The position numbers and the translations under genes are program-made. Shown piece by piece: positions 28,242 to 36,789 of a DNA stretch of 64,000 bases. The notes below the pieces were generated by a model. It made no database searches. It saw only the letters and a program-made list of their open reading frames with translations, and was not told where the DNA came from. The stretch's first letter is position 1. Each line of letters starts with the position of its first letter. The stretch comes from a virus. The DNA lies in IMG/VR virus record IMGVR_UViG_3300044631_002648, positions 1-64,000 of that record. The stretch is one strand, 5' to 3'.

Positions 28242-28787
28242 ATGGCTCATTTTGAACAGCAACAATTTGTTCAAAGTGTGAAAGACGAATTCCCGTCGTT
28301 CTTTCATGGTGGAAGAATTGTGGAAATTGGTAGTCTTGATATCAATGGAAGCGTGAGGCGTTTCTTTGATGCCCCAAAAGAATATGTGGGCGTAGACGTT
28401 GGTGCGGGGAAAGGCGTTGACGTGGTGTGTGAAGGACAGAGCTATGACGGTGCCACTGGCAGTTTTGACGTGGCCATTTCTGCCGAATGCTTTGAGCACA
28501 ACCCCTATTGGGAGGCAACGTTTGCCAATATGCATCGCATGGTGCGCGATGAAGGACTAATTGTGATGACATGCGCGACGACGGGGCGCCCTGAACATGG
28601 CACAACAAGAAGTGACATGGGCAGCAGTCCGCTAACGGTGGGCAAGGGCTGGGACTATTACAAGAATTTGATTGAGGAAGATTTCTATAACGCTTTTCCT
28701 ATTGGTTGCATGTTCTCAGAACATTGTTTTAAGGTGAACACAAGTAGTCACGATTTGTACTTCTGGGGGCTTGTAAGCAAGCTATAG
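28242..28787 (+). CDS. Class I SAM-dependent methyltransferase
   Basis: The 181-aa protein has motif I VEIGSLDINGSVRRF (27-41), an acidic ribose-binding VDVGAGKGVD and the catalytic-core SFDVAISAECFEHNPY. It matches small Methyltransf_11-type enzymes that act on sugars or small molecules. It lies 2 bp after the GT2 gene, so glycan O-methylation is a reasonable inference. Confidence 0.8.
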   Translation: MAHFEQQQFVQSVKDEFPSFFHGGRIVEIGSLDINGSVRRFFDAPKEYVGVDVGAGKGVDVVCEGQSYDGATGSFDVAISAECFEHNPYWEATFANMHRMVRDEGLIVMTCATTGRPEHGTTRSDMGSSPLTVGKGWDYYKNLIEEDFYNAFPIGCMFSEHCFKVNTSSHDLYFWGLVSKL

Positions 28788-29333
28788 ATCATCTTTGGCT
28801 TGCCATTTAGAAAGTTCTTTTCGCTGGTGTTCCGAGTTTGAGAGAACTTCCAAATTCTCAATGTCGTTGTTTAAATGGTTGTCATCAATATGGTGAACAT
28901 GCTCCCAACTTTCAAGTTTACGTCCCAGATATTGTTCCATTAGCCATCGGTGTTCCCTGACTTCTTTTCCGTTTACAGAAATAGTTTTGTAAATCTTGCG
29001 ACCTGAACCCCCCTTGAGCGCCTGGGCTCTCCTTGTAACTGGAGATGCTTCGCGTGCCTTTTGTGTGTTTTCGGGATTAGCTAGAGAGGTGCACCGCCGA
29101 GAACAAAACTTGGCCGTATCTGCTCTATATTGAGGCACGTAAAATCCCGAGTCGCATAGCTTGCAGTTCAAAAGGACGCCTTTTGCTTGTCGTCCTTTTA
29201 TTTTTCCAATTTTTCGTAAGTACGAAACTTGGCAGGTGCGACAACAGTAAACATTCGTCTTTCTCCTTGGGGAGAATGCGGCGCTACAGTTAAGACAGGG
29301 CTTGGGGTCCACAAAAAGCAAATCAACTCCCAT
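28782..29333 (-). CDS. HNH endonuclease, inserted in the head operon
   Basis: The 183-aa minus-strand protein from ATG 29331-29333 has N-terminal zinc pairs (CLNCSAAFSPRR, YCCRTC; CKLC, CSRRC) and a C-terminal HNH motif (EHRWLMEQYLGRKLESWEHV, HHIDDNHLNNDIENLEVLS). It is antisense within a plus-strand operon and shares a CTATAG with the methyltransferase stop, typical of a homing-type insertion. Confidence 0.85.
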   Translation of the reverse strand: MGVDLLFVDPKPCLNCSAAFSPRRKTNVYCCRTCQVSYLRKIGKIKGRQAKGVLLNCKLCDSGFYVPQYRADTAKFCSRRCTSLANPENTQKAREASPVTRRAQALKGGSGRKIYKTISVNGKEVREHRWLMEQYLGRKLESWEHVHHIDDNHLNNDIENLEVLSNSEHQRKELSKWQAKDDL

Positions 29334-29358
29334 CACCACAGCAGATAGCGAGACTCAA

Positions 29359-29706
29359 ATGGCAAAAGCATCGCCTAAACAGCAGCGCAAGATTTCAAGA
29401 GTTTTGAGGGAGTTCAAAGCTGGAACCCTTAAAAGCAGTAGTGGGGAAAAAATTACGGACCCCAAACGCGCGTTGGCGATTGCGCTTTCAGAAGCTGGTG
29501 TGTCACGCGAAATACAGAAAGATAAGAGCGATGCTTATTGGGACGCCTATATCGACACTATGTGCGGCTCGATGAGCAAGGGCGGCATGGAAGAAGAGGA
29601 AGAGGGGGAAGAGGAAGAAGAAATGGAAGAGGAGATGGACGCCAACGCTGCTGAGGCTCGCTGCAAAGGCTATCTTTCTTCCCTTAACAAAAGAAAAAAG
29701 CGCTAA
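29359..29706 (+). CDS. Frameshift pair, upstream frame (DUF6496-like)
   Basis: The 115-aa zero-frame product from ATG 29359 begins MAKASPKQQRKISRVLREFK and contains AGTLKSSSGEKITDPKRALA, like small DUF6496-type proteins. A strongly acidic run (EEEEEGEEEEEMEEE) and a basic tail NKRKKR follow. The last codons carry the slippery heptamer A_AAA_AAG at 29694-29700, 3 bp before the stop. The function is unknown; position suggests a head protein. Confidence 0.75.
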   Translation: MAKASPKQQRKISRVLREFKAGTLKSSSGEKITDPKRALAIALSEAGVSREIQKDKSDAYWDAYIDTMCGSMSKGGMEEEEEGEEEEEMEEEMDANAAEARCKGYLSSLNKRKKR

Positions 29707-30050
29707 GGGGCGACGCCGAAAGCTTCGCCCCTCCTGCCAGCGTAAAGAGTGCTGCACGGCGCGGCCTTGAGCTGCGCCGAAAGCACGGCAAGGGAGGGCT
29801 TACTACAAAAGAAGCTGGAGAGCAAGGCATTGGAAGCGGCGTGGCACGAGCCACGTCGCTAGCTAACGGAGAGAAGGTTAGTGCAAACACCATTCGTCGC
29901 ATGGCTGCATTTTTCTCGAGGCATGAGAAGAACAAAAGCGGTGGTGAAAATGACGCGGGCTACATTGCTTGGCTTTTGTGGGGCGGCGATGCGGGGAGAT
30001 CTTGGGCGAATCGTACGCTTAGGATGCTGGAAAAGCGTCAAGAAAAATGA
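29359..30050 (+). CDS. -1 frameshift fusion protein, join(29359..29700,29700..30050)
   Basis: Slippage at A_AAA_AAG would fuse the 114 upstream residues to 116 more, giving 230 aa. The downstream frame has no ATG, GTG or TTG before its conserved-looking part (VKSAARRGLELRRKHGKGGL, EQGIGSGVARATSLA, GYIAWLLWGGDAGRSWANRT). A hairpin GGGGCGA/TCGCCCC (29707-29713 with 29725-29731) starts 6 nt after the heptamer, as in dnaX-type sites. The C-terminal domain resembles a module found in other phage head-region proteins; its function is unknown to me. Confidence 0.75.
29694..29731 (+). promoter_or_regulatory. -1 frameshift signal: slippery site plus hairpin
   Basis: A_AAA_AAG at 29694-29700 is in the correct phase with the upstream frame (AGA AAA AAG). 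A 6-nt spacer containing the stop codon leads to a 7-bp GC-rich stem with an 11-nt loop. Confidence 0.75.
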
Positions 30051-30361
30051 TGGAAGGCCTCAGGATGGTGCGTGAAGAGGAAGACGGCATCAGTGTGATG
30101 CAGGCCTTGCAAATTCTGTCCCGCAATGCCCATCGCAATACTTCTCGTTGGGAACTTGTTGAAAAGCAAGTATTTAAAAATGGGCGTCTCGAAGAAACTC
30201 ACGAATATGTGGTGAGTGTTTACGACGTGCCTGATTCGCAATTTGAGCCTGCAAAGTTTTTGATTTTTGAGGCAGTAGCAATGGCGAAGGCTTACATCAT
30301 GGACGGCATTGAAGAGCAGCTTGCTTCTATTCGCGAAGAAGATGAGGACGATGAGGATTAG
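30047..30361 (+). CDS. 104-aa acidic hypothetical protein
   Basis: ATG 30047 overlaps the preceding TGA as ATGA. The product (MMEGLRMVREEEDGISVMQA) is alpha/beta and ends in a long acidic tail (REEDEDDED). It overlaps the convergent repressor gene by 4 bp. It may be co-translated with the frameshift protein. Confidence 0.6.
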   Translation: MMEGLRMVREEEDGISVMQALQILSRNAHRNTSRWELVEKQVFKNGRLEETHEYVVSVYDVPDSQFEPAKFLIFEAVAMAKAYIMDGIEEQLASIREEDEDDED

Positions 30362-30648
30362 TCCTTCGTCGCATGAACGACGAAGGACGGATAGCCAAGA
30401 AGCCAGAGCACACTGAGCTGAAAAACGCCGCTCATCACTTTAATTTGAGCCACATCTGGGGCGAGGATGCCACTTTCAATGCGAGAGATGGTGGCCTGAT
30501 CGCAAAACAGCAGTTCCGCCAGCGCTCTTTGTGACAAACCACAACCTTGGCGAGCTTCCCGCACTCGGGAACCAATGAGAGCTTTAGCTTCGGAATAGGA
30601 GGAGCGTGGGCTTTTGACTTTACGCCCGCCCAAATCTTTTTGCGTCAT
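30358..30648 (-). CDS. XRE/Cro-CI family repressor
   Basis: The 96-aa protein has a basic N-terminus (KDLGGRKVKSPRSSYS), then a HTH_3 domain: IGSRVREARQGCGLSQRALA, ELLFCDQATISRIESGI and VFQLSVLWLLGYP. It is the only classic phage-type repressor in the window. It is divergent from the protease-scaffold gene, and the 60 bp between them carry inverted repeats, so autoregulation and control of the capsid operon are likely. Confidence 0.85.
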   Translation of the reverse strand: MTQKDLGGRKVKSPRSSYSEAKALIGSRVREARQGCGLSQRALAELLFCDQATISRIESGILAPDVAQIKVMSGVFQLSVLWLLGYPSFVVHATKD

Positions 30649-30708: not shown

Positions 30709-31905
30709 ATGAGCACCACATCTTGTCGGTACGACGTTTCTCCTATTGAGAAATATGAAATGACACCTGAAGGTTATCTTCGGGTGTGGGCTTCTATTGC
30801 ACGTACTGGCATTCAGCATTACACCGATGCTGACGGTTCTATCAGGAAGGAATTCCGCCCTGAAACCGAGGTGGCGTCTCCAGAAAGCCTTGCCTCATTT
30901 GCGGGGAAGGCCATCACGATGGAACATCCTCCTGTTCTTTTGGACAGTGAGAACACCAAAGATTACCAAATTGGTTTTACTGGTTCAGAAATTGTCTATG
31001 ACAATGGCTTTGTAAAGGCCGTTATGACAGTGACTGACCGCGAAACCATTGATAAGGTGATGAAAGGTGATGTTCGTGAAGTGAGCGCTGGCTATAGGGT
31101 CAATTATGATCCGACGCCTGGCGTTACCGATAGTGGCGAGCATTACGACGGCATCCAAAAGGAAATCAGTGGTAATCACGTTGCTATCGTTCGTCGGGGC
31201 CGAGCTGGCCCGCAGGTGAGGCTGCATTTGGATCGCCTAGATGCTGCTGACCCCTCCCTAATTTCCACTGAGGAAAATCAAACAATGAGCGCAAAAGTCG
31301 TTTTCGACGGCGCCGAGTTTGAGGTGAGCGAGAGCGTTGCTCTGGCGATCACCAAAGAACGCGAAGACGCCAAGATGTCCTACGAGGACATGAAGAAGAA
31401 GTACGACGAGCTGCAGGCCGCTGCTGATTCCATGAAATCCGAGATGGATGCAATGGAAAAAGAAATGAAGGGCAAGATGGACGGGGCCGAAGGCCGCGCC
31501 GATGCTCTGGCCGAGCAAGTTGACTCTCTGAAAGCCGAGCTGGAAGAAGCCAAGCAAATCAACGTGGATTCCATTGTTGAAGATCGTCTGGCTCTCATCT
31601 CCAAGGCCAAGCCTGTGCTGGATGCTGCCTATGAATTTGGCGGCAAGAGCGACCGTGAAGTGATGGTTGATGCCATCAAGGCAGTTCGCGGTGATTCTGT
31701 TGCTCTGGACGAGCGTTCCGACGATTACGTCCTAGCAATGTTCGACACCATCTCTGAAGATGCTGCCAATCGCGCTGATTCCACTGAGGATCTGCGTAAG
31801 GCAGTGGCTTCTATTGCCACTCCTGCTTCTGCTCCTTCCTCCTATATGGAGAAGCTGCAGAATGCTTGGAAGTCCCCTCTCTCCATTTCCAAGGAGGCTA
31901 AGTAA
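30709..31905 (+). CDS. Prohead protease-scaffold fusion (DUF2213-like)
   Basis: The 398-aa protein has an N-terminal protease-like domain, with MTPEGYLRVWASIARTGIQH, ITMEHPP (candidate catalytic His) and GDVREVSAGYRVNY, as in DUF2213-type phage proteases. From about residue 215 a long coiled coil (KKYDELQAAADSMKSEMDAM) forms the scaffold, and the C-terminus returns to helices. It cleaves and shapes the procapsid. An internal ATG at 31285 with GAGGAA upstream could yield scaffold alone. Confidence 0.85.
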   Translation: MSTTSCRYDVSPIEKYEMTPEGYLRVWASIARTGIQHYTDADGSIRKEFRPETEVASPESLASFAGKAITMEHPPVLLDSENTKDYQIGFTGSEIVYDNGFVKAVMTVTDRETIDKVMKGDVREVSAGYRVNYDPTPGVTDSGEHYDGIQKEISGNHVAIVRRGRAGPQVRLHLDRLDAADPSLISTEENQTMSAKVVFDGAEFEVSESVALAITKEREDAKMSYEDMKKKYDELQAAADSMKSEMDAMEKEMKGKMDGAEGRADALAEQVDSLKAELEEAKQINVDSIVEDRLALISKAKPVLDAAYEFGGKSDREVMVDAIKAVRGDSVALDERSDDYVLAMFDTISEDAANRADSTEDLRKAVASIATPASAPSSYMEKLQNAWKSPLSISKEAK

Positions 31906-35853: not shown

Positions 35854-36385
35854 ATATTCTTCGTTTTTTCTTCTCAGCAGTCCCGAGTACGAAAAGCTTG
35901 GAGATAAGTTGCGCCTGCGCAAATATGGCAGTTGGCTGGCGGAAGAAGCCTGGCTTAGGGAAGAGCAGTCACAAAAGCGTGCATTGTTTACCTTGAAGGC
36001 TATTGATCTAGCGCGCAAGATTGCAAAAGACAAGGGAATTGAAGATGCAGAAGCTTTTGAGCTACTGCAGAACAGTGGCATGATTGACGAAGAGCTAATG
36101 GGAGGCTATGCAGCAGAGGCCACTGCATTGATGGAGAATATGCCCTCCAACCGCACTCAGCTTGAGCAGCTTGTCACTATCTTCTTCCGCAATCGAGGCG
36201 AAGTGCTACAGGGCAAGAAATGGGAAGCCACTGATGACTGGACCGAGGAAGACACAAAGATGCTTCCTAAATTGGTTCTTGAGCAAGTGGAGCAATTCAT
36301 GCTTAGCGAGGATTCCACTGGCGTAGTAGGCGAAGAGGGCGAGGAAAAAGAAGAAGAAGAAGAAGAGGAAGAAGCAAAAAACTAA
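35846..36385 (+). CDS. Tail assembly chaperone, short form (G-like)
   Basis: The 179-aa helical protein (MSKYSSFFLLSSPEYEKLGD) ends in an acidic run (EEGEEKEEEEEEEEAKN). Two-frame chaperones of this kind bind the tape measure during tail assembly. A_AAA_AAC at 36376-36382 is the last sense sequence before the stop codon. Confidence 0.8.
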   Translation: MSKYSSFFLLSSPEYEKLGDKLRLRKYGSWLAEEAWLREEQSQKRALFTLKAIDLARKIAKDKGIEDAEAFELLQNSGMIDEELMGGYAAEATALMENMPSNRTQLEQLVTIFFRNRGEVLQGKKWEATDDWTEEDTKMLPKLVLEQVEQFMLSEDSTGVVGEEGEEKEEEEEEEEAKN

Positions 36386-36789
36386 TCAGTCGGTTAGCTG
36401 AACAGTCTGACGCTGTGTTGAGCAGGGCAACAGATTGGACATTTTTGTATTGCCAGCTAACCGCTTTAAACCTTCCAGACCCTATTTTCCACGCATCGAA
36501 CTTTGCGCGATTGCCAGTACGTTTGATTACAGACGTACTGGATAATCATTCAAAGATTTCTCGCATGCGTGCCAATGCGAATAGTTTGGCCACTGCAAAG
36601 ATGGGGGCGATGGTGGCATCTGCGCTTGGCAGCAAGGGAAATCAAGTGAAGGTGACTGACTTTTTGCCATACGAAATGGAAAAAGACACGGGAAGCGTGT
36701 CTGAAGAGACTAAAGAAGTGCTCAAATGGGCACTTAAATCCCAAAAACTTCCGCCCGCCATTGTCGCAATGCTGGGAAGCGAATTGTAG
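35846..36789 (+). CDS. Tail assembly chaperone, -1 frameshift form (GT-like), join(35846..36382,36382..36789)
   Basis: After slippage at A_AAA_AAC the -1 frame continues LISRLAEQSDAVLSRATDWT and NARLPV-type sequence up to the stop at 36789, giving about 314 aa. The downstream frame has no convincing start of its own; a TTG near 36418 lacks a ribosome site. A weak stem GTTAG/CTGAC lies shortly after the site. This is the standard G/GT layout just before the tape measure gene. Confidence 0.8.

Follow-up and report, generated by a model that had tools for sequence, protein, structure and literature searches.

We found that the head operon of phages related to Synechococcus phage S-CBS4 very probably uses programmed -1 ribosomal frameshifting to make a short protein together with a C-terminally extended form of it, a reading in which the signal, the frames and the products rest on comparative sequence evidence. 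The window analysed here is a stretch of 64,000 nucleotides (positions 1 to 64,000 of IMG/VR record IMGVR_UViG_3300044631_002648), part of a 70.4 kb virus record, and its nearest named relative is S-CBS4 (87.3% identity over 81% of a 3.9 kb query). The features concerned are the following.

29359 to 29706, plus strand: zero-frame DUF6496 gene, short product of 115 amino acids (ATG 29359, TAA 29704-29706; PF20106 match and charge profile)
29694 to 29700, plus strand: slippery heptamer A_AAA_AAG in the zero-frame phase (V_VVA_AAG in 122 of 143 distinct relatives)
29707 to 29731, plus strand: putative stimulatory hairpin, arms 29707-29713 and 29725-29731, extra pair 29706-29732, 11-nt loop (fold and covariation)
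29700 to 30050, plus strand: -1 frame encoding domain B, 116 codons from GCG 29700 to the codon preceding TGA 30048-30050 (phrog_2859)
30047 to 30361, plus strand: next gene, its ATG overlapping the -1 frame stop (ATGA)
30709 to 31905, plus strand: head maturation protease (phrog_530, E 4.5e-105), its downstream position kept in relatives

The preliminary description of this DNA had proposed an in-phase A_AAA_AAG 3 bp ahead of the stop of the upstream gene, a 6-nt spacer leading to a 7-bp GC-rich hairpin, and a downstream frame without a start before its conserved sequence, and we found all of these in place. The DUF6496 gene ends in the codons AGA AAA AAG CGC TAA, with 3 nt between heptamer and stop; the spacer covers 29701-29706 and the stem pairs GGGGCGA with TCGCCCC, to which folding adds an A29706-U29732 pair that lengthens the stem to 8 bp and shortens the spacer to 5 nt. 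The region 29701-29740 folds at -19.2 kcal/mol (z -3.38), and one of 200 shuffles was equally stable. The -1 frame is open from 29688 to 30050, and its first ATG, GTG or TTG is GTG 29841, 45 codons into conserved sequence. Among the 20 genes of the window (5550 codon positions), the heptamer at 29694 is the only in-phase V_VVA_AAG.

To survey relatives, we combined five scans from domain B sequences (four of viral contigs and one of genome contigs) with named records, which yielded 153 distinct regions not selected by pattern. Ten domain B regions without DUF6496 were left out (L083, L084, L358, L360, L362, L364, L376, L439, L440 and L441), L194 was excluded as truncated, and the 143 sequences counted, all with a DUF6496 frame ahead of domain B, are distinct but not independent. 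A V_VVA_AAG heptamer followed by a zero-frame stop was present in 122 of the 143, while the other 21 carry both domains in one frame and have no heptamer. The genome-contig scan (alignment A2) gave four loci with domain B, one of them a close relative (L438) and the others in other contexts. The arrangement is shared by the cultured phage S-CBS4.

The heptamer varies among the 122 loci as A_AAA_AAG (82), G_GGA_AAG (29) and C_CCA_AAG (11), and no U_UUA_AAG was seen among them. Excerpts of PMC4066793 place V_VV.A_AA.R motifs in the group with the highest -1 efficiency in E. coli, and the natural variation of the first three bases is exactly the A, C and G of what these excerpts call the "three best V_VV.A_AA.G heptamers" (V = C, A or G); U_UUA_AAG is there given as efficient as well (PMC4066793). 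Another 39 distinct sequences came solely from a search with a DNA pattern that leaves XXX free and were kept outside the conservation counts; they have AAA (29), GGG (9) or CCC (1) at this place. In the 118 loci where the heptamer was exactly placed, a set that demanded a stop 0 or 1 codon away, the zero-frame stop follows after 0 codons in 11 and after 1 codon in 107. Four others were added by eye to give 122: L374 and L435, where the stop lies five codons on, within the hairpin, and heptamer and stem are retained, and the shifted variants L398 and L417.

This variation bears on two further explanations. The A6 run at 29694-29699 of the window could point to transcriptional slippage, which would give mixed mRNAs, some of them joining both frames. 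Such slippage needs long homopolymers, however, and 40 of the 122 heptamer loci read GGGAAAG or CCCAAAG, where the A run of the site never exceeds three; furthermore, slippage would need neither a hairpin nor an adjacent stop, and we regard it as extremely improbable. The second explanation is that the window contains a pseudogene or an error of sequencing or assembly. In its favour, the two frames form one continuous gene in 21 of the 143 relatives, the very pattern that the preliminary description had named as a sign of sequencing error. These relatives were looked for and do exist, but they do not indicate an error: they lack the heptamer, their linkers differ and the stem is mostly gone, so that we take them to be natural, hard-wired fusions. 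The same shift occurs in 122 distinct sequences with varied heptamers, stops and stems, including cultured S-CBS4, and because the contigs, by their names, derive from many separate IMG samples, a sequencing error is excluded.

Next, we examined the hairpin. The full seven-pair stem forms in 104 of the 118 heptamer loci, compared with 2 of 22 rows filed as fused; these 22 are the 21 fusions and a misfiled region, L440. Heptamer loci and fusions encode similar residues despite this difference in pairing, and the mean folding energy is -13.8 kcal/mol for the former and -6.2 kcal/mol for the latter. Among 88 distinct rows, 96.3% of cells pair, and the covariation score is 0.183, against 0.098 for shuffled alignments (0 of 500 reaching it) and at most 0.072 for slid ones; the hairpin thus beats every shuffle for both cells paired and covariation, and every slid version, with the caveat that relatedness inflates the shuffle test. 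The fifth pair varies (C-G 33, A-U 38, U-G 8, G-U 2 and unpaired 7 of the 88 rows), the third base of a Gly codon tracking the later residue, Ala (G) or Ser (U). At one locus, L090, an A-U pair has replaced G-C at the fourth position even though this substitution alters two amino acids. Mismatches also occur: pair 5-21 is mismatched in 13 of the 118 heptamer loci. On starred tree branches, five independent pairs were available for stem covariation, of which 4.5 agree on average and none is opposed, a number too few for p < 0.05. A quick tree of domain B nucleotides gave parsimony minima of 20 heptamer-state, 10 frameshift/fusion and 32 stem-pair changes, counts that are rough because the tree uses about 280 nt and recombination is likely.

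The GGGG stem is missing from two of the 118 heptamer loci (L233 and L428) and from L398 (on the same contig as L450) and L417. All four have C_CCA_AAG and an adjacent stop, and in L398 and L417 the site lies one codon further upstream; another stimulator or a weaker shift may apply at these loci. Within the coding sequence of domain B, at about 29756-29780 of the window and some 55 nt past the heptamer, another strong hairpin is predicted.

We then asked how the -1 frame is read immediately after the site. Codons 0-11 past the shift, which precede any usual start, have a pN/pS of 0.30 in the -1 frame, compared with 1.73 in the zero frame and 2.94 in the third. Ser5 of the -1 frame is encoded by both AGY and TCN codons. 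Furthermore, pS is lower over codons 0-11 than further on (0.507 versus 0.712), as expected if the RNA stem is also under selection. Collectively, the region combines the features of an X_XXY_YYZ signal: an in-phase heptamer before a stop, a conserved downstream RNA structure and -1 coding after the site.

These data also bear on whether DUF6496 and domain B are simply two separate genes, domain B being translated by internal initiation or by re-initiation after the TAA. This is how the S-CBS4 record presents them, with gp019 annotated from GTG 13217 (codon 12), and the one start-like codon that recurs, a GTG at codon 12, is found in 33 of the 122 heptamer loci. The Val12 codon drifts, however (GTA 54, GTG 31, GTT 31 and GTC 4 of 120), the -1 frame of 61 of the 122 loci lacks a start codon through codon 15, and the window itself has none before codon 45. 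The S-CBS4 stretch GDAEGFAPPASVR (codons 1-12) is encoded ahead of the annotated gp019 start, in a region where codons 0-11 are under protein constraint. Because the upstream codons are constrained, starts are absent in half of the loci (61 of 122) and Val12 drifts, gp019 is most likely mis-started in the record. Two separate genes would moreover leave the heptamer, the stem and the fusions that start with DUF6496 unexplained, and we consider this arrangement very unlikely.

The conservation in relatives of both heptamer and stem, which the preliminary description had put forward as a check, is thus borne out (V_VVA_AAG in 122 of 143, all seven stem pairs in 104 of 118), and its central proposal, a -1 frameshift that fuses two domains in the head operon, is upheld by the conserved heptamer, stop and stem with support from covariation, by the natural one-frame fusions and by the coding constraint on the -1 frame. 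It is very likely, on these comparisons, that the frameshift signal is real, since many related viruses retain it through matched changes.

Natural variants provide a second view of the system. The linkers of the 21 fusions range from short (..AYVETFQEDRGDAESF) to acidic (..EEEMEEEEEEADRGDSESF), and in these hard-wired, long-only forms the acidic linker is altered or lost. A reverse scan from DUF6496 gave at least 98 distinct loci, at least 72 of them without domain B nearby; those listed are nearly all short DUF6496 genes of the usual kind from other phages, and L448 is the informative one. Its head protease is identical to that of the window at 375 of 398 residues, and domain B, heptamer and hairpin have been lost together, so that the DUF6496 frame ends RKRRK-TAG and is followed directly by the last bases before the next gene. 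The signal is therefore present where domain B lies in the -1 frame and absent where domain B is fused or deleted. Both long-only and short-only lineages seem to be viable, the short-only state being known from one contig. It is possible, and we propose it tentatively, that one phage family has moved a two-domain protein among frameshift-mixed, hard-wired fusion and domain B-deleted states while swapping the three strongest V_VV.A_AA.G motifs.

The short product matches Pfam DUF6496 (PF20106) at 27.9 bits, above the cut-off of 24, and consists of a DUF6496 domain, an acidic linker and a basic tail ending in KRKKR, with a net charge of +8 over residues 1-50 and -17 over residues 51-100. A match of the short product to a nitrile hydratase accessory family of NCBIfam reached 15.9 bits against a cut-off of 46 and was taken as chance. 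The long product totals 230 amino acids. Its domain B is basic (computed pI about 10.7) and matches phrog_2859, a family of unknown function, over residues 11-116 (E 4.7e-16). Domain B is a roaming module that occurs also on portal and prohead protease proteins: tblastn against named phages gave matches under portal protein, major capsid/head protein and prohead protease features, BFVD structure matches include proteins named prohead protease, XkdF, portal and ParB/sulfiredoxin, and at the fetched loci L376/L379 and L439 domain B forms the tail of long ORFs. An AlphaFold2 model of the natural fusion L198 (mean pLDDT 81.1, pTM 0.52) gave nothing at E <= 0.001 against the PDB and no Z of 5 or more in VIA-align; rows suggesting a lambda-repressor-like fold were weak (Z 2.2-2.8) and unusable. 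A PDB sequence search returned no match, and Rfam gave nothing above the gathering score.

We propose that most ribosomes would translate the DUF6496 gene and end at TAA 29704, yielding the 115-aa protein, while a fraction, paused by the hairpin at 29707-29731, would slip back one base on A_AAA_AAG. The shifted ribosomes would append the basic, predicted helical domain B of about 114 aa to give a protein of about 230 aa and, since the -1 stop overlaps the start of the next gene, would terminate on that start codon. The acidic and basic make-up of the products and the links of domain B to portal and protease point to a long form that carries domain B into the head during assembly, with the short form as the bulk partner. 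We infer that slippage occurs at a useful rate in the cell, and that a bulk short form and a minor long form delivering domain B may act together in a ratio that matters.

The operon around the pair is well kept. Taking all 157 heptamer regions, pattern-found ones included, for synteny and stop overlap, a homologue of the 30047 gene follows in 147 and the head protease in 136, some sequences ending before these genes are reached. The -1 stop with its preceding base reads ATGA in 90 and GTGA in 38 (128 of 157), and ATGA is found at the domain B stop of all 21 fusions. Such overlaps would be compatible with a frameshift that serves mainly as a valve for the 30047 gene, with restart at ATGA, so that the rate of shifting sets the expression of that gene rather than a protein ratio. 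Stop/start overlaps are ordinary between co-transcribed phage genes, however, which counts against this explanation, and domain B is itself strongly constrained as a protein; a valve as the main role is thus unlikely, although its effect can coexist with an effect on the protein ratio, which we favour.

Other features of the locus deserve description. An HNH endonuclease gene (28782-29339, minus strand; named after S-CBS4 gp017) lies between the methyltransferase and DUF6496 genes, also in S-CBS4. L448 lacks this gene, and there the DUF6496 start codon shares bases with the stop of the methyltransferase gene (ATGA), a difference that looks like the insertion of a homing-type gene. A repressor-like gene (30358-30648, minus strand) sits in the middle of the head operon directly before the head protease, and its S-CBS4 counterpart is gp021, "transcriptional repressor". 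Downstream, a candidate tail-chaperone frameshift site, A_AAA_AAC at 36376-36382, is in phase and abuts TAA 36383-36385 of the 35846 ORF. An open -1 frame continues into the 36415-36789 ORF, which precedes the long 37352 ORF. S-CBS4 differs at this place, with an A run and then a quick -1 stop.

How does the DUF6496/domain B pair compare with known systems? The preliminary description called it dnaX-like, a label that suits the heptamer and the hairpin spacing, since E. coli dnaX (gamma/tau) shares A_AAA_AAG and a GC-rich hairpin a few nucleotides downstream, but not the outcome. In dnaX the zero frame encodes the long protein, and a shifted ribosome soon meets a stop, which yields the shorter form. 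Our pair shows the reverse, the short form coming from the zero frame and the long form from the shift, and the gene is a DUF6496 gene, not homologous to the dnaX clamp-loader gene.

Among phage head genes, excerpts of PMC5009743 describe -1 frameshifts at the ends of the major capsid protein genes of T3 and T7 (gene 10) and of Lactobacillus phage A2; there too, the shift takes place where a gene of the head operon ends, and some of the product gains a C-terminal domain. The base protein here is a small DUF6496 protein, however, the added part is domain B and not Ig-like as in those excerpts (PMC5009743), and the annotated major head protein of S-CBS4 is a separate gene further downstream. The lambda G/GT tail assembly chaperone also has a short and a frameshift-extended form of one morphogenesis gene, according to the same excerpts (PMC5009743), but our pair lies in the head rather than the tail operon, no homology was recognised, and the window has its separate candidate chaperone site at 36376. 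Whereas G/GT stands just upstream of the tape measure gene, the DUF6496/domain B pair precedes the head protease, and the S-CBS4 tape measure gene is about 7 kb beyond it. Lastly, orfA/orfB of the IS3 family shares the V_VV.A_AA.G class, a hairpin 4-10 nt downstream and a long -1 product, as excerpts of PMC4066793 indicate, in a transposon rather than a phage head-operon gene.

In searches of the openly accessible literature, we found no report of a DUF6496/domain B frameshift pair. The literature searched contained no mention of DUF6496 and nothing on XkdF with frameshifting; papers on S-CBS4 and frameshifting, judged by their titles, included none on this gene pair, and the excerpted text of the PRFect paper mentions neither Synechococcus nor cyanophages.

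Taken together, these results indicate that the DUF6496/domain B frameshift is deeply conserved and has been overlooked in annotation, as with the two genes of S-CBS4. Most known phage frameshifts lie in genes for tail chaperones and major capsid proteins. This case concerns a different head-operon gene and is a first starting point for work on DUF6496 and domain B, both of unknown function. Should the three-state reading hold, evolution would be able to adjust, like a dial, how much long form of a head-assembly protein is made relative to the short form, and the ATGA overlap may extend this control to the next gene. Frameshifted, fused and deleted versions already exist in nature, and comparing them is a ready way to ask what the product ratio does in capsid assembly.
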